64,000 nucleotides of DNA. Origin: Lachnospiraceae bacterium (GTDB lineage Bacteria; Bacillota; Clostridia; Lachnospirales; Lachnospiraceae). Positions 7,158-33,690 of the stretch are shown one piece after another. Under the pieces are notes generated by a model. It had not been told where the DNA came from, searched no databases, and saw only the letters and a list, made by a program, of their open reading frames with translations. The translations under genes and the position numbers were made by a program. The stretch is taken from the NCBI GenBank assembly GCA_017626095.1, contig JAGAJL010000010.1, positions 1 to 64,000 on the forward strand, read 5' to 3'. Within the stretch, counting starts at the first letter, position 1. Each line of letters starts with the position of its first letter.

Positions 7158-7234
<77 letters not shown>

Positions 7235-7240
7235 AATTTC

Positions 7241-7280
7241 AACGGAAATGCTTTAGTTTTAAGGCATTTCCGTTATTTTT
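7241..7280 (+). terminator. Terminator after tRNA-Gly
   Basis: A perfect 11-base stem, AACGGAAATGC (7241-7251) with GCATTTCCGTT (7264-7274), then a T-rich tract. It belongs to the element side of attL and ends the tRNA transcript. The integrase stop codon lies in its tail. Confidence 0.85.
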
Positions 7281-8664
7281 ATGCATTTGAAAAAGTGGGG
7301 ACATTTGAGGACATTTTGGGGACAGTTAGTTTCTTACTTTGGAATGCTTTGATGGATACCACATTGGATGCCATATTAGATGCCATATTGTCTGCAACAG
7401 ATGCTGTCGTGACTGCGCTGTTATCAGGCGAATCCATTTCTTGTGCGCCATCTTTCTTCCGTGATAACGCCTCCGTAAGCATCTTGTAACTCTCTGCCTC
7501 TGTCAACGGATTGTAGATATATCCGTAAGTGGTCGACAGGGAAGCATGTCCTAACTGTTCTCTGATGAAATCGATGGGTACGCCATTTGCATTGCACATG
7601 CTGGCGTAGGTCTTTCTTAACTTGTGGGAGCTTTTTACCTGCAAATCAAATCTTTCCGCATACTTTTCCAGCACGTAGTTAATCTGCCTTGAAGTAAGAC
7701 GTTTCCCATCTCTCATGAAGATGTATTCGCTGGTTCTGGGAAGTTTTGCGAGAATCTCCAACGCATCCGGTATCAGATATACAAAACGGTCTGTATGAGT
7801 CTTGGTGTGGTCGGCAACGGTAATTTCGTTTGCTACCTGGTCACGCACTTCTTCACGGACGATATGTATCTGATTCCCTTCGCAGATATCTTCCCATTTG
7901 AGTGCAACCAGCTCCCCCACTCTCAGCCCCATAAAGAAATTCATCTTTACAGCCATGAAAGCAATATCACCAGTCTGCTCATACATCTCATCCAGATAGG
8001 TATTGAGTTTTTCTAGTTCTTCGGTGTTGTAGGTCTGAGTCTTTCCAGTTTTCTTCACCACCTGTCTGAATTTCACGCTAATGCGAATCTTCGGCATTAG
8101 GTTTTCCTGCAGATATTTCATGCGGTAAGCATACTCAAACATGCCATTTAGAAGTGTTTTCAAATTCACCCATTCCTTGTTGGACAGATTGAATTCTCTC
8201 ACGATTCGGTTGCACTCGGTCTCCAGCAGAATCTCCGTTATCTTCAAAATCTGTACCTGATACAGCTTTGAAGAAGCGATATACTTCTTAAAGTGCTGCC
8301 TGTGCCGAAGGATGGTGTTGGGGCTTGTGGTAATCTGCGCCTTGTACGCAATCCACTCCTCAAACAATTCCTGAAGGATTTTCTTTTCAAGGTTCTCCCG
8401 GTCAAGATATAATGGAATCAGCTTATCTAGTAAAGCCTCTTCCGTTTGTGCACGAATGGTCTTTCTCTTGCCATTCCTGTCAGTGTAATTGGTTCTCCAC
8501 CGCTCACCTTCTTTTGAGGGTGGCGTTATGGAGTACGGATGCAGGGCTTTCGCCTGCTCTCTCTTTGATGCCATACACAATTCATGCACTCTATCCAAAT
8601 CGAGTATACCATTAGAAAGCGCATAAGATAAAGTGCTTTGTGCTTCAAAATCTAAACTTTTCAT
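7279..8664 (-). CDS. Tyrosine recombinase (integrase)
   Basis: A site-specific recombinase of 461 residues, starting at the ATG at 8664 with AGGAG upstream. A longer in-frame start at 8793 would read through a terminator hairpin and is unlikely. Domains: an N-terminal DNA-binding segment (about 55-90), a core-binding domain (about 115-200) and a catalytic domain. Catalytic features are Arg in GLRVGEL at about 248, HKLRKTY, the LGHAS box, and a Tyr within GYIY. It would insert and excise the element at tRNA-Gly. The last 45 residues are Ser/Val/Asn-rich with repeated NMASN-like units. Confidence 0.93.
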   Translation of the reverse strand: MKSLDFEAQSTLSYALSNGILDLDRVHELCMASKREQAKALHPYSITPPSKEGERWRTNYTDRNGKRKTIRAQTEEALLDKLIPLYLDRENLEKKILQELFEEWIAYKAQITTSPNTILRHRQHFKKYIASSKLYQVQILKITEILLETECNRIVREFNLSNKEWVNLKTLLNGMFEYAYRMKYLQENLMPKIRISVKFRQVVKKTGKTQTYNTEELEKLNTYLDEMYEQTGDIAFMAVKMNFFMGLRVGELVALKWEDICEGNQIHIVREEVRDQVANEITVADHTKTHTDRFVYLIPDALEILAKLPRTSEYIFMRDGKRLTSRQINYVLEKYAERFDLQVKSSHKLRKTYASMCNANGVPIDFIREQLGHASLSTTYGYIYNPLTEAESYKMLTEALSRKKDGAQEMDSPDNSAVTTASVADNMASNMASNVVSIKAFQSKKLTVPKMSSNVPTFSNA

Positions 8665-8685
8665 AGTTCTCCTAAAAATGAGTAT

Positions 8686-8712
8686 AAAAAAGGCACCGCC
8701 ATAAACGATGCC
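8686..8712 (-). terminator. Terminator in the integrase leader
   Basis: On the minus strand GGCATCG pairs with CGGTGCC and is followed by six T, just 22 bases before the integrase ATG. A second weaker hairpin (AGATT/AATCT, about 8725-8746) lies upstream. Integrase transcription is probably limited by attenuation or shielded from outside reading. Confidence 0.6.
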
Positions 8713-8826
8713 AAACAAAAAGACAGATTCTCTAATTAGAAATCTGCCTCGTGTTAAATATATTGTTTTTGATATTTGTATAATTTCTGTCACCTATACT
8801 TTATCACTTTTGAAAACCTACCGCAA

Positions 8827-8856
8827 TGGACAAAAGGTAGACAAATGGTAGACAAA
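8827..8856. repeat. Short direct repeats beside the integrase
   Basis: Two copies of GGTAGACAAA (8836-8845 and 8847-8856), preceded by a related GGACAAAA. The 11-base period suggests binding sites on one face of DNA, for example arm sites for the integrase or an excisionase. The function is inferred. Confidence 0.45.
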
Positions 8857-8909
8857 ATATTTACAAAACCCCTACAAAATATCGACAGTTTATTAGCCGA
8901 AGGCGTAGC

Positions 8910-9040
8910 TTCTTCAAAATACAATTTGAAGAATTCGAAGGGTTTGGGATATTTCCCAACAAGCAGATTTGCGCAGCAAGTGCAAGGTATATACCTTTGC
9001 ACTGCTTGCCAATTTGCAAAACCTGTACAGGTTTGCATTG
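8910..9040. repeat. Cluster of four hairpins between integrase and regulator
   Basis: Consecutive inverted repeats: TTCTTCAAA/TTTGAAGAA at 8910-8933; TTGGGA/TCCCAA at 8944-8959; a long stem GTGCAAGGTAT/ATACCTTTGCAC at about 8976-9009; and GCAAAACCTG/CAGGTTTGC at about 9015-9035. The last two share CTGCTTGC-like flanks. This 0.5-kb stretch (8794-9310) has no convincing gene. It may be a replication or transfer origin, or a control region. Confidence 0.5.
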
Positions 9041-9200
9041 CTTGCTACTTTTGTGACAGTATAACTGTATCATGTTTGGGATTCGGGGAAAAGCGTGACT
9101 TTGGGTGGATTTTCGGTGGAATGGGGGTGATATTCAGTGGATAATAATATTGATTGATGAAACACATATTGAGTAAAGATGCATGGAATAGCTAATTTCA

Positions 9201-9254
9201 TAATTCAACTATGAGTTGAATTAATTTGAAATTTTCAATAGTAGAGTTATTGAA
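9201..9254. promoter_or_regulatory. Operator-like inverted repeats before the XRE gene
   Basis: TAATTCAACT-atg-AGTTGAATTA at 9201-9223 is a perfect 10-base inverted repeat. TTCAATA/TATTGAA at 9234-9254 is a second one with a 7-base spacer. Both lie 60-110 bases before the XRE-methyltransferase start and are plausible autoregulatory sites. Confidence 0.5.
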
Positions 9255-9310
9255 TAATGCATAAGTTTAATCTATGCTGATATTAGTGATTGATATAAGG
9301 AGGCTGCGCT

Positions 9311-10165
9311 ATGAATCATAATATTGGAGTATATATCGCAAAGAAAAGAAGGGAACTTGGCCTAACACAGCAAAAATTAGCAGAGCAATTGAATGTTTCA
9401 TTTCAAGCTGTTTCAAAGTGGGAAAACGGAACAACAGTGCCTGACACATTATTACTGTCGCAATTGGCATCGGTTCTCAAAACATCAGTGGACACAATAG
9501 TTGGATATAAAGCCGTACCAATCACTGAATATGAAAAAAAGTATGAGGGTCAGGAATACTATTGGGGGATTGCACCTAATCGCCTATGCTATGAAATTAT
9601 GAAACTTAGGCCTCCTGTTAAGCCGTACAAAGTATTAGATATCGGTTGCGGAGAAGGAAAAGATGCCGTATTTTTAGCAAAAAACGGGTACATTGTTTCT
9701 GCATTCGATGCAGCAGAAAAGGGGTTGGAAAAAGCAAGGGAGTTAGCACGATTGCATCATGCGGATGTTAATTTTTTTCAAGCTGACATTAATGAATATG
9801 AGTTAAGTGAGGAGTATGATATCATTTTTTCGAGCGGAGTATTTCATTACCTTACACCGAATCGTAGAGAAAAGTTTATTCAGAACCTGAAAGAACATAC
9901 TACAATGCAAGGAATACATGCATTAAATGTATTTGTCAAAAAACCATTTATCGAAGTAGCGCCGGATAGTGAAGAAGCAGAATTACGAAATGAGCCTTGG
10001 TATTCCGGTGAACTGATGCGATATTATCATGATTGGATATTTCACAAATATGAAGAAGAAATTTTTGATTGTAATAGCGGTGGAATACCACATAAACATT
10101 GTATGAATAGAATGGTTGCAGAAAAGCTATCAGTTAAAGGAGGTGAGAACGATGGTATTGCCTGA
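9311..10165 (+). CDS. XRE regulator fused to a SAM methyltransferase
   Basis: A 284-residue fusion. Residues 7-62 form an XRE-type helix-turn-helix (LGLTQQKLAEQL, then VSFQAVSKWENG). Residues 78-280 form a class I methyltransferase with SAM-binding motif LDIGCGEGKD at about 115, most like TehB-type enzymes. AAGGAGGCTGCGCT precedes the ATG. It overlaps the next gene by 14 bases. A regulator that senses or methylates a small molecule is a reasonable inference; the substrate is unknown. Confidence 0.85.
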   Translation: MNHNIGVYIAKKRRELGLTQQKLAEQLNVSFQAVSKWENGTTVPDTLLLSQLASVLKTSVDTIVGYKAVPITEYEKKYEGQEYYWGIAPNRLCYEIMKLRPPVKPYKVLDIGCGEGKDAVFLAKNGYIVSAFDAAEKGLEKARELARLHHADVNFFQADINEYELSEEYDIIFSSGVFHYLTPNRREKFIQNLKEHTTMQGIHALNVFVKKPFIEVAPDSEEAELRNEPWYSGELMRYYHDWIFHKYEEEIFDCNSGGIPHKHCMNRMVAEKLSVKGGENDGIA

Positions 10166-10961
10166 TTATCATGTACATACAGCATACTCTCCCGATTCAA
10201 AGATGGAACCTGAGGAAGCTATTATTGCCGCAATTTCATCTGGAATTTCGGAAATCTGTTTTACGGAGCATATGGATTTGGGACATCATATGGAATCTTT
10301 TAACCGTGTTCCGGATTTTGAACGAATAGAAAATTCGATTTCGCAGTTGAGAAAGAAGTATCCGAAAATAAACATAGGAAAAGGAATTGAAGTAGGTTAC
10401 ATTTCAGATACTGCCAAACAAACTGCAGCAGTTTTGTCAGGACAGAATTTTGACTATGTTTTGCTGAGTACTCATTGTGTTGATGGGATTGATTGTTATG
10501 TTCCGGAATCTAAGCGGGACAGGGATAAGTTTACCGCTTACAAAAGATACCTCGAAACGGTATATGACTCCGTTATGGATGATAATCTTACGAAGTATTA
10601 CGATTGTATAAGTCATATTGGATATATAGCGAAATGTAACCATTATGAGGATAATGTATTTCCGTATCAGTTATTTCCGGAATTATTTGATGAGATATTG
10701 AGTGAAGTAATCAAACGAGGAAAAGGGATTGAAGTAAATACTTCGGGAATAAACAGAGCGGGACATGTTTTGCCGCATCCAAGCATTATTCGTCGTTATC
10801 GTGAATTAGGTGGACGGATTATCACAATTGGTTCGGATGCGCATAAACCTCAAAATGTAGGTGCATACATTAAAGATGCTATTGATATTATTGCACAAGC
10901 TGGATTTCAAGAAATTACATTATTTAAAAACCGAGAACCGAGTTTTATCAGTATATTATAG
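10152..10961 (+). CDS. PHP-domain phosphoesterase (histidinol-phosphatase-like)
   Basis: A 269-residue metal-dependent phosphoesterase. The start at 10152 is chosen because a near-perfect AGGAGGTGA sits 6 bases upstream; an earlier ATG at 10116 has no good site. The PHP motifs are DYHVHTAYSPDS at the N-terminus, CFTEHMD at about 45, STHCVDG at about 105, and GSDAHKP near 225. There is no histidine operon nearby, so a role in histidine synthesis is unlikely. Coupling to the methyltransferase gene suggests a shared small-molecule pathway. Confidence 0.85.
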   Translation: MVLPDYHVHTAYSPDSKMEPEEAIIAAISSGISEICFTEHMDLGHHMESFNRVPDFERIENSISQLRKKYPKINIGKGIEVGYISDTAKQTAAVLSGQNFDYVLLSTHCVDGIDCYVPESKRDRDKFTAYKRYLETVYDSVMDDNLTKYYDCISHIGYIAKCNHYEDNVFPYQLFPELFDEILSEVIKRGKGIEVNTSGINRAGHVLPHPSIIRRYRELGGRIITIGSDAHKPQNVGAYIKDAIDIIAQAGFQEITLFKNREPSFISIL

Positions 10962-11053
10962 GTATAAGAGGTTCGATGCTTTGGAATTACAAGTGAATCA
11001 TCGAAAAAATATTGCATAAATATATCTATTTGCATATAATAAATGTTAACAGA

Positions 11054-11097
11054 ACCCAACACGCCTCTCAACGATGCGGACCATGTTGGGTCTTTTT
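11054..11097 (+). terminator. Intrinsic terminator
   Basis: ACCCAACA (11054-11061) pairs with TGTTGGGT (11084-11091), followed by CTTTTT. It ends the XRE-PHP transcript. Confidence 0.75.
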
Positions 11098-11126
11098 AAA
11101 TTGTGTCAGCAGTGCTGACACAATTT
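11098..11126. repeat. Perfect 29-base palindrome
   Basis: Fourteen bases (AAATTGTGTCAGCA) repeat exactly inverted around a single G at 11112. It lies directly after the terminator and about 45 bases before the leader RNA promoter. It may be an operator or an additional hairpin. Confidence 0.7.
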
Positions 11127-11172
11127 AGCTGTTATCTTCGAAATGTATTCTATATAAAACGGTGTTTTGAAT

Positions 11173-11202
11173 TTGACGTAGAAACATATTTTGCTATATA
11201 CT
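11173..11202 (+). promoter_or_regulatory. Promoter of the DUF3644 leader RNA
   Basis: TTGACG at 11173-11178, an 18-base spacer, and TATACT at 11197-11202. Transcription would start near 11209, about 120 bases before the DUF3644 start codon. Confidence 0.6.
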
Positions 11203-11208
11203 GAGAAT

Positions 11209-11288
11209 AGTTGAGCATTATCGTTATTACTTGGGCTGGTCAGAAGACCCGGGTCCACCATCCGGCGGGTAAGACACCCGCCTTTTAT
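11209..11288 (+). ncRNA. Structured leader RNA ending in a terminator, upstream of DUF3644
   Basis: About 80 bases. A first hairpin has GGTC-AGAA-GACC (11238-11249). A self-complementary ACCCGGGT and a GTCCACCATCC segment follow. The last hairpin, GGCGGGT (11264-11270) with ACCCGCC (11276-11282), runs into TTTT. This is an intrinsic terminator before the gene, so the RNA is either a free small RNA or an attenuator for DUF3644. I do not recognise it as a known riboswitch. Confidence 0.5.
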
Positions 11289-11329
11289 TCTAGATAGGCA
11301 CTAAGTAACATAAGAAAGGATATACATAA

Positions 11330-12310
11330 ATGCAAAGTATTCAGGACAAGTTAGTTGAAAAATCCAAAGAAGCCTTTTGCATGGCGATAGAATTATATAA
11401 TAAGCCAACGATAAAGTATCGTGTGGAAGGTTTTGCGCTTTTCATATGCAATGCATGGGAACTTATGCTGAAGGCGCATATGATAAAGACAATGGGCGAG
11501 AATAGTATTTATTACAAAGATAATCCGCAGAGAACACTATCTTTGGAAAATTGTGTGCAGAAAGTTTTTACCAACAATAAAGACCCGCTTCGTATCAATT
11601 TAGAAAAAATTATTGAACTAAGAAATACCAGTACGCATTTTATTACTGAAGAGTATGAAATGGTATATGTTCCCTTGTTTCAGTCCTGCGTTTTAAATTA
11701 TAACGAGAAAATGATGGTGTTTCACAATGTGGATATGACTGCTGTGGTTCCACAAAACTTTTTGACATTATCCATAAGCATGAAAGCCCTCGACGAGTCC
11801 GAAATAATTGCGAAATATCCGGAAGAAATTGCAAATAAACTCTTGGTTGCAAATGATTCTATTGCTGATATGATAAATTCGCACAATGACAAATTTGCCA
11901 TTAAGATTGAGCATCACCATTTCATTACAAAAGATAAAGCTAAAGCAACATCGCTTGTCGGAATTGATAATTCCGCTGATGCCAAGGTGAAAATAGTGAA
12001 GGAACTGAAAGACCCTAATGTAACGCACAAATACAGTACAACGAGTTGCGTTGCAGAAATAGGTGCCCGATTAAACCGACTTGGAATTACATTGAGGTAC
12101 GGTGAGGAGACAAAGCGTTTTAACACATACCATTTCAACTTGTTTTGTAAATATTATGGAATAAAAGAGAACCCCAAGTTCTGTTATCAACATCAGTTGA
12201 CTCACACATATGGTTACAGTATACAGACCATAGATTTTATTGTAGAAGAAATAAAAAAAGATCCTGATAACATTATTCAGAATCTTAAAGAGTATTTGGC
12301 AAAAAAATAA
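11330..12310 (+). CDS. DUF3644 protein with HEPN-like Rx4H motif
   Basis: A 326-residue protein resembling DUF3644 (PF12358). The N-terminal helical region (about 10-125) contains R98-NTST-H103, which fits the Rx4-6H motif of HEPN ribonucleases. The middle (about 185-210) is Lys-rich, and the C-terminal 110 residues include a likely helix-turn-helix (VAEIGARLNRLGI). AGAAAGGA precedes the ATG. It lies alone between two structured RNAs in an integrated element, which suggests an RNA-controlled toxin or abortive-infection role. That role is inferred; only the family and motif are seen. Confidence 0.8.
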   Translation: MQSIQDKLVEKSKEAFCMAIELYNKPTIKYRVEGFALFICNAWELMLKAHMIKTMGENSIYYKDNPQRTLSLENCVQKVFTNNKDPLRINLEKIIELRNTSTHFITEEYEMVYVPLFQSCVLNYNEKMMVFHNVDMTAVVPQNFLTLSISMKALDESEIIAKYPEEIANKLLVANDSIADMINSHNDKFAIKIEHHHFITKDKAKATSLVGIDNSADAKVKIVKELKDPNVTHKYSTTSCVAEIGARLNRLGITLRYGEETKRFNTYHFNLFCKYYGIKENPKFCYQHQLTHTYGYSIQTIDFIVEEIKKDPDNIIQNLKEYLAKK

Positions 12311-12393
12311 GCTAACCCCAGGGGCAAAGGAATTCTCAGTCTTACGACTTACTCCCATTCGGGAACCCAGCCTTATCCTTCACGAGTTAACTT
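12302..12393 (-). ncRNA. Candidate small RNA convergent with DUF3644
   Basis: About 92 bases on the minus strand. Its 5' end AAGTTAACTC pairs perfectly (two G-U) with GGGTTAGCTT at its 3' end, followed by ATTTTTTT, so the terminator stem closes the whole molecule. Inside, AAGGA pairs with TCCTT, and two tetraloop hairpins follow: TCCC-GAAT-GGGA and AGTC-GTAA-GACT. No open frame is apparent. It is tail-to-tail with DUF3644 and its terminator tract overlaps that gene's stop region. I do not recognise an Rfam class. Confidence 0.65.
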
Positions 12394-12399
12394 ATTTAT

Positions 12400-12427
12400 A
12401 TTATAACATACGTAAATGAATTGTCAA
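12400..12427 (-). promoter_or_regulatory. Consensus promoter of the convergent small RNA
   Basis: On the minus strand a perfect TTGACA (12427-12422), a 16-base spacer and a perfect TATAAT (12405-12400). The expected start is near 12393. No protein gene follows it on this strand. Confidence 0.8.
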
Positions 12428-12540
12428 TTATACAGGAGAAAATTGTTCGATTTCAATTAAAATTGGGACACTTTGGGGGACTGCTCATGGATAGAGTGCT
12501 TTCCTCCTTGATTTTACTTCTGTTTGTGAGCCATCCCGAA

Positions 12541-12565
12541 TTCGATCCCCGTCTCGCGCTCTTTT
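12541..12565 (+). other. attR, right attachment site
   Basis: Identical over 25 bases to the tRNA-Gly 3' end at 7210-7234. It is not part of a tRNA here: the upstream bases do not continue the cloverleaf. It marks the right end of the element. Confidence 0.85.
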
Positions 12566-12570
12566 TATTT

Positions 12571-12608
12571 CCCGGAAACCCTTGTAAAATGGGCGTTCCG
12601 GGATTTTT
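12571..12608 (+). terminator. Terminator after attR
   Basis: CCCGGAA (12571-12577) pairs with TTCCGGG (12596-12602), followed by ATTTTT. It was probably the original terminator behind the tRNA-Gly end, now displaced by the element. The layout mirrors the one after attL. Confidence 0.7.
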
Positions 12609-12652: not shown

Positions 12653-12837
12653 CATATGAAATATGCCTGAAAATAGTGATTTGAGATATTCAGAATTCCA
12701 CATAGTTATTTAATGATTGCAAAATATAGAATCAAAATTAAAAACGGAAAACTCGCTGATAAATTATTAATACGGTGTTATACTACTAATAAATAAAAAA
12801 TAAAAACATCAAAAACGTTTATAAAATGGAGGCGTTC

Positions 12838-13992
12838 ATGAAACTTCTTCGTATTACAGCGGAAGGATTACCGCTATTTAAGGAAAAGCTGGATTTGATT
12901 TTTTTTGCGCAACAGAGAGTCGCAGAAGAACAAAAGAATATTCTGTATCCATTATTTTCAAATATTTATTTGAATTCTGCAACTGGATTTATAGGTATCA
13001 ATGCATCCGGAAAAACCTCGGTTTTAAAGGTTATTCTGCTTGCTTTAGAAATAATCAATAATGAGCCGATTAACCATATTGAGACCAGAGATATATTGGG
13101 AGATGCAAAAGAGGTCAAATTAAATATGTATTTCTTTTCCAGAAAGACAAATGAAATTTGTCGGTTGGAAACAATTATTGCATCCAGACAGAGTAAGTCA
13201 GAAGGGACAAATTACAGTATTGTCTCAGAGTTTTTATGGAAAAAGAATGTAGATGAAGTGATTACCCGCAAGGCAATGCTCGATTTTGAGGGAAAAGAGC
13301 CGGTAATAATCAGGAGCAGTCAGGAGGAATTTTTATCTGATGATGTGAGTATCATGATTGCCAGAAATAAAAAGACGAAGGAACACGTGCGTATTGTAAA
13401 TCTCTTAAAATATACGAATGAAAATGTTCTTCCATTCTCAGAAGATATACCTGCAGAGGTTATTACATTTTTGGATCCAACAATCGAGAGACTACATTTT
13501 GATGAAAAGGATAAAAAGACATTAATCCATCTGAAATTCAAAGGGAAAGAGGAAATTATTCTTAACAATCCAGCGGAATTGAATAATTATCTTTCTTCAG
13601 GTACGGTAAAAGGAATGATTACATTTACCTTAGCACAAGAAGTGTTGCAAAATGGTGGATATATTGTTGTGGATGAAGTTGAAAACCATTTCAATAAAGA
13701 AATCGTTACAACACTGATGCGTTTCTTCATGGACAGCAAGTTGAATAAAAATGGTGGCACACTTATTTTTTCTACACATTATCCGGAATTGCTTGATGAA
13801 TATGATCGCAATGATAGTATATTCATTACCAGAAATTGCAATGGTATCACAGTAGAAAATCTATCTAATATACTAAAAAGAAATGATATCAAGAAGAGTG
13901 ATGCATACCAAAGCGGTTTTCTTGAAGGTACGACTCCGACATATGAGGCATATATGCAACTAAAGAAGAGTATCGCCGCCTCCCTTGCATAG
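12838..13992 (+). CDS. AAA family ATPase (OLD/AAA_15-like)
   Basis: A 384-residue single-ATPase protein. The start at 12838 is preferred over 12826 because GGAGG lies 5 bases before it. Walker A GINASGKTS is at about 52, Walker B IVVDEVENHF at about 280, and a FSTHYPELLDE motif follows. The architecture matches ABC-type ATPases encoded with a small nuclease-like partner in defence loci. The partner downstream is broken, so the system may be inactive. Confidence 0.8.
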   Translation: MKLLRITAEGLPLFKEKLDLIFFAQQRVAEEQKNILYPLFSNIYLNSATGFIGINASGKTSVLKVILLALEIINNEPINHIETRDILGDAKEVKLNMYFFSRKTNEICRLETIIASRQSKSEGTNYSIVSEFLWKKNVDEVITRKAMLDFEGKEPVIIRSSQEEFLSDDVSIMIARNKKTKEHVRIVNLLKYTNENVLPFSEDIPAEVITFLDPTIERLHFDEKDKKTLIHLKFKGKEEIILNNPAELNNYLSSGTVKGMITFTLAQEVLQNGGYIVVDEVENHFNKEIVTTLMRFFMDSKLNKNGGTLIFSTHYPELLDEYDRNDSIFITRNCNGITVENLSNILKRNDIKKSDAYQSGFLEGTTPTYEAYMQLKKSIAASLA

Positions 13993-15213: not shown

Positions 15214-15585
15214 ATGATCCCCATGGGCAATATAATTGCTCAGAGACTTCATGAAGTAGTGTTAGAAGGGGAACTTGGTATTGATTACACATTTGCTGGA
15301 GATCGCGATAAAAATATTGCTCTTCGTAGAAAATATAAAGTAAACGATGCTAAGATGAAGGAAATACTTTTGGAGATTTCGGAAACACATTATATAAAAA
15401 GTGAACCTAGTACAAATGTTAATCATCCAGATGATGTAGTGCATGTGTTTAAAATTCAAAAAGAGTTGATGCCTAAATTTGAAGAATCTTCTAGCTATGT
15501 AAATGTCTGCATATATGTAAAGATTACATGGCCAGATGGTAAAGAACCAATGTTTATCATTTCATTTCATGAAGATGAAGAGTAG
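15214..15585 (+). CDS. MqsR-family toxin (RNase-like)
   Basis: A 123-residue protein preceded by AAAGGAGAAGG. The C-terminal two thirds matches the MqsR pattern: a helix, then LLEISETHYIKSEPS, a linker, and strands VNVCIYVKIT and MFIISFHEDEE. MqsR toxins are ribosome-independent or ribosome-linked mRNA interferases with a RelE-like fold. It is first in the operon, before a zinc-ribbon HTH antitoxin, the same order as mqsRA. Assignment rests on pattern similarity read by eye. Confidence 0.7.
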   Translation: MIPMGNIIAQRLHEVVLEGELGIDYTFAGDRDKNIALRRKYKVNDAKMKEILLEISETHYIKSEPSTNVNHPDDVVHVFKIQKELMPKFEESSSYVNVCIYVKITWPDGKEPMFIISFHEDEE

Positions 15586-15656: not shown

Positions 15657-15749
15657 ATGGAAGCAACTTCATGGATTGATATATTCAAAAATAGAGAATA
15701 TAAGAAACGTAAACAAGTAAAAAGGAAAAGCAAGGAGAAGGAACAATGA
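15657..15749 (+). CDS. Small basic 30-residue peptide between toxin and antitoxin
   Basis: A short frame starting at an ATG with GGAG 7 bases upstream and ending in ATGA, so its stop overlaps the antitoxin start. Sixteen of the last 20 residues are Lys, Arg, Gln or Glu. It may be a leader that couples antitoxin translation, a degraded gene, or a true peptide. No homologue is recognised. Confidence 0.4.
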   Translation: MEATSWIDIFKNREYKKRKQVKRKSKEKEQ

Positions 15750-16747
15750 GTGCGGGAAAGAGAGAACTTTTATGCAGTAAATGTTGTAAAAGAGTTTCAT
15801 ATCATATTTTCAAACGCCCTGCAAAAACAATAATTAAAGATATTGAAATTGAGTATGAAGAGTATTATGGCTTATGTGATGAGTGTCAGTCTGAAATTTA
15901 TGTTCCTGGATTAGATGACAGGAATGAGGATGTAATTGAAGAAGAGTTCCGAAAGAAGAAAGATTTAATAACGATTTCTGATATTAAAAAAATACTTGAA
16001 AAATATAATGTTGAAAAAAGACCATTATCTAAATTATTGGGATTTGGAGAACTTACAATAACAAGATATATTGATGGACAGTTACCTTCAGCTAAATACT
16101 CAGATATTCTATTGGAAGTATCAAGAGATGAGCAAAAGATGAAGGAATACGTTGAAGCAAATAAAGAGAAAGTTTCTGCAGTGGCTTTAAATAAAGTAAT
16201 AAGAGCAATTGAAAAGTGTGAAGTAGAAAAGAAATATGATAATTCTGCTGAAAAGATTGCTTTATATATAATAAGCTCTGGAAGAGAAATTACGAATCTT
16301 TTTTTACAAAAAATTTTATACTATGTGAAAGCAATAAGTGAATTATTTGAAGGGAAATCCATAATTATGGAACCATGTGAAGCATGGAAATTTGGTCCGG
16401 TATTTCCGTCTGTTTATGAAAAATACAGAGAGTTCGGTAAGCAGGAAATAGAAATTAGTTTATCTAAAGAATATGTTAATGGATTGCTTACAAAACAGGA
16501 AAAACAAGTTACTGATTATGTAATGAATACATTTGGAATATACAATGCATGGTTTTTGAAGGATTTAACACATCACGAAGAGCCATGGATAGCGGCCAGA
16601 AAAGGATTGTCAGAGGATGATGCAAGCAGGAACTTGATGGACGAAGAAATCATTTCACATTATTTTGCGAAAATAAATGAAAAGTATGATTTAAAAACGG
16701 TAGTTGGTGTAGAAGCGTATATCAACGATATGAAAAAAGAAATGTAA
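15746..16747 (+). CDS. MqsA-like antitoxin with Panacea (SocA-like) domain
   Basis: A 333-residue protein with three parts. Residues 1-52 form a zinc ribbon with Cys at 10, 13, 44 and 47, as in MqsA. Residues 75-135 contain an XRE-like helix-turn-helix (LSKLLGFGELTITRYIDG). Residues 165-310 resemble the SocA-like Panacea domain, including the WKFGPVFPSVYEKYREF core motif. The ribbon and Panacea would neutralise the toxin and the HTH would bind the operator at 15143-15175. It overlaps the small peptide by 4 bases. Confidence 0.85.
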   Translation: MSAGKRELLCSKCCKRVSYHIFKRPAKTIIKDIEIEYEEYYGLCDECQSEIYVPGLDDRNEDVIEEEFRKKKDLITISDIKKILEKYNVEKRPLSKLLGFGELTITRYIDGQLPSAKYSDILLEVSRDEQKMKEYVEANKEKVSAVALNKVIRAIEKCEVEKKYDNSAEKIALYIISSGREITNLFLQKILYYVKAISELFEGKSIIMEPCEAWKFGPVFPSVYEKYREFGKQEIEISLSKEYVNGLLTKQEKQVTDYVMNTFGIYNAWFLKDLTHHEEPWIAARKGLSEDDASRNLMDEEIISHYFAKINEKYDLKTVVGVEAYINDMKKEM

Positions 16748-27809: not shown

Positions 27810-27856
27810 AGGGTATTAATTGTTGAAAAATGTCACAATTTATGGTAAAGTAACGC

Positions 27857-27941
27857 TTGGTATAAGTCCACAATCGGGTGGACGTCTCTACCAACCACCG
27901 GAATGGTTGACTACCGTGATTTATCGGAGTCACCATTTTTT
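27857..27941 (+). promoter_or_regulatory. Purine riboswitch with overlapping terminator
   Basis: The aptamer runs 27857-27917. P1 TGGTA/TACC-, J1/2 TAA, P2 GTCCAC/GTGGAC, J2/3 GTCTCTAC, P3 CAACCA/TGGTTG and J3/1 AC agree with purine riboswitches. The C at 27911 predicts guanine rather than adenine binding. L2 ends in GG and L3 begins with CC as needed for the loop kiss; each loop is 6 rather than the usual 7 bases. A terminator stem, TGACTaCCG (27908-27916) with CGGAGTCA (27925-27932), then T6, overlaps P3 and P1. Confidence 0.85.
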
Positions 27942-33547: not shown

Positions 33548-33579
33548 AGCAGAAACTCTTTGCACTGCAAGTTAAATAC

Positions 33580-33690
33580 AGTACAAACTGATCAGGCCAA
33601 AGCAGGATGCTTGGAGCCGGGTTACAATTGTAACAGTGGATGAATCGCCCATGGGACAGTAGATACAAGACTGCTCCTATGGGTTTTTTT
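33580..33690 (+). promoter_or_regulatory. NiCo (czcD) riboswitch
   Basis: AACTGATCAGGC, GAGCCGGG, AACAG and TGGGACAG occur in the order and spacing of the NiCo consensus. A terminator stem, CCCATGGGACAGT (33648-33660) with ACTGCTCCTATGGG (33670-33683) and then T7, overlaps the 3' part of the aptamer. Metal binding should therefore block termination and switch the exporter on, as described for this class. Confidence 0.9.

Follow-up and report, generated by a model that had tools for sequence, protein, structure and literature searches.

We analysed a window of 64,000 nucleotides (nt), positions 1 to 64,000 of contig JAGAJL010000010.1 from a Lachnospiraceae bacterium (GenBank assembly GCA_017626095.1, genome G000 in our set, 2.7 Mb and 86.6% complete). 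This window carries an integrated element whose last gene belongs to the DUF3644 family and faces a small structured RNA lying convergently at its 3' end. The first-pass annotation of this DNA had placed the gene between two structured RNAs, a leader on the 5' side and a convergent RNA on the 3' side, and had suggested that both control a toxin-like HEPN RNase. The convergent 3' RNA is the discovery described here; the RNAs on the 5' side are already of known types. The features on which the argument turns are the following.

7203..12571, no strand: integrated element of 5.4 kb, from the 3' end of a tRNA-Gly gene to a repeat of the same
7279..8793, minus strand: phage-type integrase of the element (profile match), adjoining tRNA-Gly
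11330..12310, plus strand: DUF3644 gene (326 amino acids; Pfam DUF3644, expectation value (E) 4e-60, residues 7-179)
12400..12427, minus strand: promoter-like site of the convergent RNA, TTGACA-16-TATAAT, 12/12 consensus
12301..12396, minus strand: convergent structured RNA (109.2 bits with covariance model R1, which includes the window RNA)
12384..12393, minus strand: 5' strand of the closing stem P1 (alignment columns 4-13, hand-placed)
12323..12372, minus strand: three-way-junction core P2-P3-P4 (71.2 bits with core model R2, which includes the window core)
12309..12318, minus strand: 3' strand of P1 (columns 91-100, hand-placed)

The integrase lies beside tRNA-Gly, and a 38-nt repeat around the 3' end of this tRNA gene (7203-7240) recurs with 89% identity at 12534-12571. 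We therefore take 7203-12571 as an integrated element, in agreement with the earlier placement of the gene. Its cargo consists, in order, of a helix-turn-helix (HTH)-methyltransferase gene, a PHP-domain gene and the DUF3644 gene; the first of these is TehB-like and overlaps the second (9311-10961).

The assignment of the gene to the HEPN enzymes was borne out. The DUF3644 protein has the motif R98-N-T-S-T-H103, that is R98xxxxH103, its C-terminus carries an EC042_2821-like domain resembling restriction endonucleases (REase-like, residues 228-320), and PADLOC identifies it as the phage-defence candidate PDC-S19 (E 5e-145). On the strength of its profile match together with RxxxxH, we place it in DUF3644, in the HEPN superfamily and in PDC-S19. 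Of 160 relatives, 157 have RxxxxH within residues 71-140, and the other three have 24-37 stops in the matched frame. DUF3644 is hence predicted to be a HEPN RNase, and RNase activity would be expected from its sequence. No solved structure was clearly related to the protein by sequence (best E 0.35). In the open-licence literature, DUF3644 and EC042_2821 were met in PMC3710099 only and PDC-S19 nowhere. The passages of that 2013 survey on DUF3644 and EC042_2821, the protein family of the window gene, place both in the HEPN superfamily and describe a restriction-modification operon context; an RNA partner is not mentioned in these passages (PMC3710099).

The 3' RNA comprises 96 foldable nt, the last of which form a T-run at the DUF3644 stop codon. 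Its linkage to the gene was assessed in the 160 relatives, which comprise the best 80 of 202 from genome contigs and 80 of 88 from viral contigs; this set was selected by similarity to the window's clade and is redundant (117 distinct RNAs among 150). A fuzzy pattern matching both RNA ends detected the convergent RNA in 150/160, with the RNA 3' end 1-60 nt beyond the end of the protein match. In six of the misses, 15 nt or less of downstream sequence was available, and the remaining four (L074, L107, L121 and L160) were recovered by the covariance model R1, in which those four were not included. Hence all 154 of 154 assessable loci carry the RNA. Elsewhere in the same loci, the fuzzy pattern gave 20 unrelated-looking matches in 1.19 Mb, both strands included. 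The linked loci span genome contigs with titles from Lachnospiraceae to Treponema, Candidatus Melainabacteria and Paenibacillus. In curated phages, tblastn found DUF3644 in 46 records; all 40 of the 40 DUF3644 records listed also match the RNA, and for the remaining six the genus counts agree with an RNA match.

Genome-wide searches gave the same association. Of 392 genomes belonging to the order of the window, 8 have the protein, 12 have the RNA and 7 have both (Fisher p 2e-11); G254, the sole protein-bearing genome without the RNA, shows fragments. An unselected search with PF12358 in 299 Bacillota genomes returned 7 genes, and 3/3 of the window's clade have the RNA, which occurs in 6 of these genomes, 3 of them with PF12358. 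In G057, the RNA lies beside an apparent DUF3644 remnant whose middle is missing; this remnant was recognized by eye and gave no match with the protein hidden Markov model (HMM), from which L163 had been omitted owing to a stop. Rfam 15 has no family at the 3' RNA: the overlapping matches on its strand fall well below threshold, WT1-AS_7 with 15.1 of the required 50 bits (E 0.32) and ncr1015 with 24.8 of 60 (E 1.1). Nor was a family found at the RNA in 7 other related loci (E 0.5). We found no description of an RNA partner of DUF3644 in the open-licence literature, which leaves most subscription papers and bioRxiv preprints outside.

For the fold, we aligned 70 RNAs below 90% identity (alignment A2; L169 was omitted and the window RNA stands in place of L013). 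The RNAalifold consensus has 25 pairs and forms a three-way junction; it comprises the 10 pairs of P1, a two-pair GG/CC helix, P2 and the hairpins P3 and P4. In this alignment 96.1% of the cells are paired and 16 of the 25 pairs show two-sided changes; cells with such changes number 175, compared with 45.7 in shuffles and 11-20 in slid versions. The pair of columns 7 and 97 may serve as an example, being UA in 30 sequences, AU in 24, CG in 11 and UG in 5. Expression signals accompany the fold. A promoter-like site scoring at least 9 of 12 is present within 50 nt upstream in 144/149 RNAs as opposed to 3.9% of 745 random 50-mers, and a T-run follows P1 in 148/150 RNAs. In the window, the P1 3' strand together with the T-run at 12301-12307 resembles a terminator and overlaps the DUF3644 stop codon. 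The convergent RNA of the first-pass annotation, with its consensus promoter at 12427-12400 on the minus strand, is thus present as described, and of the two flanking RNAs it is the one that recurs with covarying stems.

Two further ideas about this RNA were considered and dropped. A pseudoknot between GGA (columns 19-21) and UCC (78-80) across P2 was drawn and left uncounted: RNAalifold preferred a GGG/CCU pairing inside P2, which shows two-sided changes in two sequences, and the nested fold was therefore used. A role as guide RNA was rejected, no guide region being visible: variation is strong in the P4 hairpin, and this hairpin covaries.

The RNA also occurs without the gene. A 22-base core pattern gave 91 viral-contig stretches, of which 77 were analysed (3 were already among the 160 relatives and 11 were unlisted). 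All 77 match R1, 44 with DUF3644 and 33 without; as the contigs of L203, L230 and L239 end too early, 30 of 74 assessable viral loci lack the gene. A second pattern gave 41 loci, 32 with and 9 without DUF3644 beside the RNA; both scans overlap the set of 160 in part. Among curated phages, S-CoN_Ph18 to Ph24, Javan251, phiSS12 and phiLP081102 match the RNA and have no DUF3644 match, a call that covers the Staphylococcus and Streptococcus records, for which DUF3644 matches are all listed. These orphans are of two kinds. One is the full-length RNA, often beside an integrase and convergent with varied neighbour genes. The other, situated within phage operons, is the bare P2-P3-P4 core without P1, or the core on a different outer stem. 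When outer stems were searched in 29 orphans, 11 had one of at least 10 pairs, and 9 of these had a shuffle fraction of 0.03 or less; since the remaining stems are not clearly above shuffles, we claim rebuilt outer stems for some orphans only. The Staphylococcus phage StB20-like (L272) bears two RNA copies in one prophage (585-679 and 2415-2512), one with DUF3644 and the other convergent with a PGA_cap (CapA-like) gene, an arrangement also seen in S-CoN_Ph18 (L273).

Homology between the orphan cores and the DUF3644-linked RNA was assessed with R2, a model built from 38 DUF3644-linked RNAs with no orphan included. It was run on 42 orphan loci, namely 13 of the 33 from the first scan, 20 of 59 from a third pattern introduced below (one per distinct core) and 9 streptococcal ones. 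Each locus gave exactly one match, with none other at E <= 1, and 39 of the 42 matches lie between E 5e-18 and 3e-5, the other three at 0.1-0.4. The cognate fold was then imposed on 30 orphan cores (alignment A4), 24/33 from the first scan (omitting L187, L214, L217, L226, L230, L236, L239, L253 and L254) and 6/9 of the streptococcal ones (omitting L321-L323). In these, 92.6% of the cells are paired as opposed to 83.7% in shuffles, and two-sided changes number 36, compared with 8.8 in shuffles and 5-16 when slid; they fall on 7 pairs, a number matched by 12 of 500 shuffles. The fold used here came from the cognate RNAs, and RNAalifold on the orphan alignment alone gave P3 only. Phage copies that share the fold and lack the effector gene, one of the marks of an RNA decoy of the Racr or pseudo-ToxI kind, are thus present.

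The bare cores occupy particular positions in phage genomes. In L258, L244 and L200, the core begins 5-6 nt past a tRNA-like gene with a four-base anticodon, and in L250 it lies between two tRNA genes. The tRNA-like genes directly before the core (L258:3170-3245, L244:3817-3892 and L200:1776-1851) have the anticodon CCCC and may be retained as signals for processing. In Streptococcus suis phage phiSS12, the core follows tRNA-Ser, with a DUF1492 (ArpU-type) gene upstream; the gene downstream is annotated as HNH endonuclease and has its best PHROGs match in terminase small subunit. A blastn search with 7 nt of the phiSS12 tRNA plus the core returned 88 Streptococcus phage records, RefSeq copies counted along with their originals; in 70, the match covers 80% or more of the query. 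Nine streptococcal phages were inspected, and R2 detects the core in 6 (E no higher than 3e-5). Of 8 streptococcal phage records, 7 have an annotated terminase gene downstream and 4 an annotated ArpU or DUF1492 gene upstream. A third pattern, derived from the streptococcal cores, gave 59 viral loci, with DUF3644 in 0/59; their contigs carry no host names and are streptococcal by likeness. An ArpU-like regulator lies 118-253 nt upstream in 40/48 of these loci (one streptococcal gene was an HMM seed), and ARAGORN places a tRNA directly upstream in 29/55. The first ArpU test had given 10/28 orphans versus 0/40, a count in which 6 of the 10 positives were reused as HMM seeds; without the seeds it is 4/22 versus 0/40 (p 0.013).

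On the 5' side of the gene, the annotated leader RNA proved to be two RNAs of known type, as follows.

11055..11091, plus strand: abiF-like RNA with a T-run after it (34.6 bits, below the RF03085 gathering threshold of 37)
11232..11279, plus strand: DUF3800-XI RNA (RF02975; 58.8 bits, gathering threshold 37.8)

The signals ascribed to the leader are there: TTGACG-18-TATACT at 11173 resembles a promoter, and the hairpin at 11264-11282 a terminator. The DUF3800-XI RNA scores above the Rfam gathering threshold and so belongs to that family. The abiF-like RNA, with a score below gathering and a single-sequence fold of z -3.05, lies 238 nt upstream of DUF3644 and does not recur beside other DUF3644 genes: its loop motif had only two matches among the 160 relatives, about 3.5 kb from the gene start. 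Neither 5' RNA was reported by Rfam at relatives L002-L009 (E 0.1). The fuzzy DUF3800-XI pattern occurs in 2/160 relatives, both 97% identical to the window protein, and at the Rfam threshold this RNA is found in 1/14 near relatives. No Abi_2 (PF07751) gene and no DUF3800 gene were found in the 86.6% complete window genome, which makes both RNAs look like orphans. Neither looks like a DUF3644 partner, and the leader was rejected in this role for want of recurrence beyond two near-identical relatives. The element may collect antitoxin-like RNAs, since two families tied to other proteins stand in one element.

Other features of the window are side observations. Immediately beyond the right repeat of the element lies an AAA_21 ATPase gene with a PADLOC AbiLi match (12826-13992, E 2e-29). 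A small gene with a sub-threshold match to MqsR toxin (15214-15585) is followed by a Panacea (SocA-like) gene (15746-16747), and the two form a possible Panacea toxin-antitoxin pair. Purine (27838-27933) and NiCo (33578-33661) riboswitches exceed their Rfam thresholds. The count of promoter-like sites is unremarkable (10 versus 7.6 +/- 3.2 in shuffles), and terminator-like sites number 4 versus 1.3 +/- 1.2.

Given the strict pairing with a HEPN protein, the strong separate promoter, the compact fold and the uptake of the core by phages, we propose that the RNA silences the protein. Judging from sequence and its comparison, we hold it probable that DUF3644 is a HEPN RNase kept in check by a trans-acting RNA antitoxin encoded at its 3' end, and that the phage copies are RNA decoys. 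RNA control of a toxin-like RNase, as first suggested, is accordingly the reading that we retain, with one RNA in place of two. The small RNA, transcribed from its own strong promoter convergently with the gene, would keep the RNase silent in trans. Its fold, a three-way junction (P2, P3, P4) on P1, is borne out by covariation, and the 3' strand of P1 would double as terminator. The protein would bind the junction core and its HEPN active site would be blocked, much as in type III toxin-antitoxin systems or the AbiF-AbiFr pair; the core is suggested as the bound part because a phage copy can consist of it alone. Infection that halts host transcription or degrades RNA would free the nuclease and lead to abortive infection. 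Phages bear the core alone, sometimes on a new outer stem, in the leader of a late operon or beside tRNA genes, or the full-length RNA beside an integrase, and these copies would act as decoys that hold the nuclease off, either as counter-defence or as prophage immunity against such elements. A core at the head of a late operon and beside tRNAs would be supplied while infection proceeds; that tRNA processing releases it, and that the nuclease targets tRNA, are guesses.

Type III toxin-antitoxin systems such as ToxIN, TenpIN (also encountered as NCBIfam NF047358) and CptIN have a role in phage defence, and their RNA gene lies upstream of the toxin gene, is co-transcribed with it and usually consists of tandem repeats. 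They likewise combine an RNase-type toxin with a structured RNA partner. The DUF3644 RNA, however, is a single copy at the 3' end, neither upstream nor co-transcribed nor in tandem, and the window protein is not ToxN/AbiQ, CptN or TenpN by Pfam and NCBIfam. AbiF would appear to be the nearest worked case by analogy. The RNA RCd22 of Clostridioides difficile is described as neutralising the HEPN toxin AbiF in cis and in trans through direct binding, and the pair (AbiF/AbiFr, RF03085; AbiFCd-RCd22) likewise comprises an RxxxxH protein of the HEPN type and a small structured RNA with promoter and terminator in a prophage (PMC12373285). DUF3644 with its REase-like domain is nevertheless a different protein family without an Abi_2 (PF07751) match, and its RNA has no Rfam match and is 3' and convergent, whereas the AbiF RNA is 5' and co-transcribed. 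As for the decoys, two papers offer parallels. Pseudo-ToxI of phage PhiTE escape mutants is an antitoxin-like phage RNA that suppresses the toxin of ToxIN; it arose by expansion in escape mutants of one phage, while here structured copies occur in many phage records (PMC5449768). RNA anti-CRISPRs (Racrs) are solitary phage RNA units that block CRISPR effectors and likewise imitate the RNA partner of a defence effector, though they imitate CRISPR repeats, which are not involved here (PMC10651486).

Several observations weigh against the antitoxin and decoy interpretation. The arrangement is unlike that of described type III pairs, being 3', convergent and single-copy. The covariation of the consensus fold was counted on the same alignment that yielded the fold, which favours the fold, and the single-sequence fold of the window 3' RNA is only mildly unusual (z -2.3). 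At 4 divergent Bacillota DUF3644 loci no RNA match better than E 1 was obtained with filters off, and at 7 distant plasmid loci none was found by R1 (E 10) or R2 (E 5); at least two of the latter (L325 and L331) have shortened DUF3644 genes beside an insertion sequence, so that their 3' end may be lost. The 42 orphan loci examined with R2 had earlier been selected by core pattern or blastn, and the streptococcal cores of L321-L323 are diverged or degenerate (R2 E 0.1-0.4). Within the order of the window, R2 matched 8 of the 392 genomes, all within the 12 of R1, and returned no bare core; it misses 4 of these 12. Furthermore, some full-length orphans are convergent with genes for NYN (L303), PGA_cap (L272, L273), HsdS (L179) and DUF2326 (L217). 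Abi_2 (AbiF-type HEPN) genes are convergent with a DUF3644-type RNA at L313:9540-10544, L226:2026-2979 and L340:692-1348, and at L315:1871-2460 an orphan RNA beside a prophage integrase is convergent with a TenpIN type III toxin gene. Other partners are therefore possible, or the RNA could merely mark a cargo site. The abiF RNA gave no match at L313, L226 and L340 (E 0.05). The DUF3644-type RNA might also serve Abi_2 proteins. At L226, a DUF3644 C-terminal remnant lies between the Abi_2 gene and the RNA. Immediately upstream of the TenpIN gene of L315 lies a 6A RNA that presumably belongs to this gene.

Other explanations start from the same data. The strict linkage and the strong promoter would suit a ribonucleoprotein subunit equally to an antitoxin, and the RNA could thus be an essential cofactor or bait that a DUF3644 ribonucleoprotein monitors, with its damage or displacement, by phage nucleases or by phage copies, as the activating event. 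An activator placed in the late operon would hardly benefit a phage, however, and the full-length RNA persists beside a mere gene remnant (L226; L183 by eye), so that we regard this explanation as unlikely. We give slightly less credit still to the idea that the RNA and the phage cores are a single phage-borne element, a late leader or a tRNA-processing device, beside which DUF3644 inserts as cargo. It would account for the many gene-less phage copies next to tRNAs and a late regulator and for the varied neighbours of the integrase-side orphans; but every assessable locus of the clade (154/154) keeps the RNA convergent at the stop codon, across diverse contig titles, and the cognate copies own a promoter and T-run, while bare phage cores are without P1.

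The convergent orientation and the terminator-like end overlapping the stop codon would also fit an RNA that acts on the DUF3644 mRNA, as a 3'-end antisense or as a brake or terminator by convergent transcription, in the manner of type I systems. This is improbable: RNA and gene share about 10 nt in the window, what is conserved is the fold with its compensatory changes, and phage copies with no DUF3644 in the fetched stretch retain this core fold and not the overlap. Control by the abiF-like and DUF3800-XI RNAs has in its favour the order promoter, RNA, terminator, gene, as at AbiF loci; these RNAs were not found beside other DUF3644 genes, save DUF3800-XI in two 97% identical relatives, and we deem such control very improbable.

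A trans-acting RNA antitoxin with phage decoys thus remains our preferred interpretation, and it would provide a candidate RNA antitoxin for a widespread and unstudied family of HEPN defence candidates. Beyond it, and with a confidence only just above even, we envisage a two-sided RNA arms race. DUF3644 on satellites and mini-elements would be restrained by its RNA; unrelated phages would repeatedly have taken the 49-position core and wired it into late leaders and tRNA clusters, where it would be made at the very time that the nuclease was due to act, with tRNA processing perhaps trimming it. The phage copies would offer a concrete class of phage RNA anti-defence elements, with a reach by blastn of 88 Streptococcus phage records, and a possible reason why degenerate tRNAs persist at the start of the late operon in some phages. 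Finally, a HEPN-RNA pair with an RNA unlike AbiFr would bear on the origin of RNA-guided HEPN effectors such as Cas13 from RNA-restrained toxins, as discussed in a review (PMC12737573).

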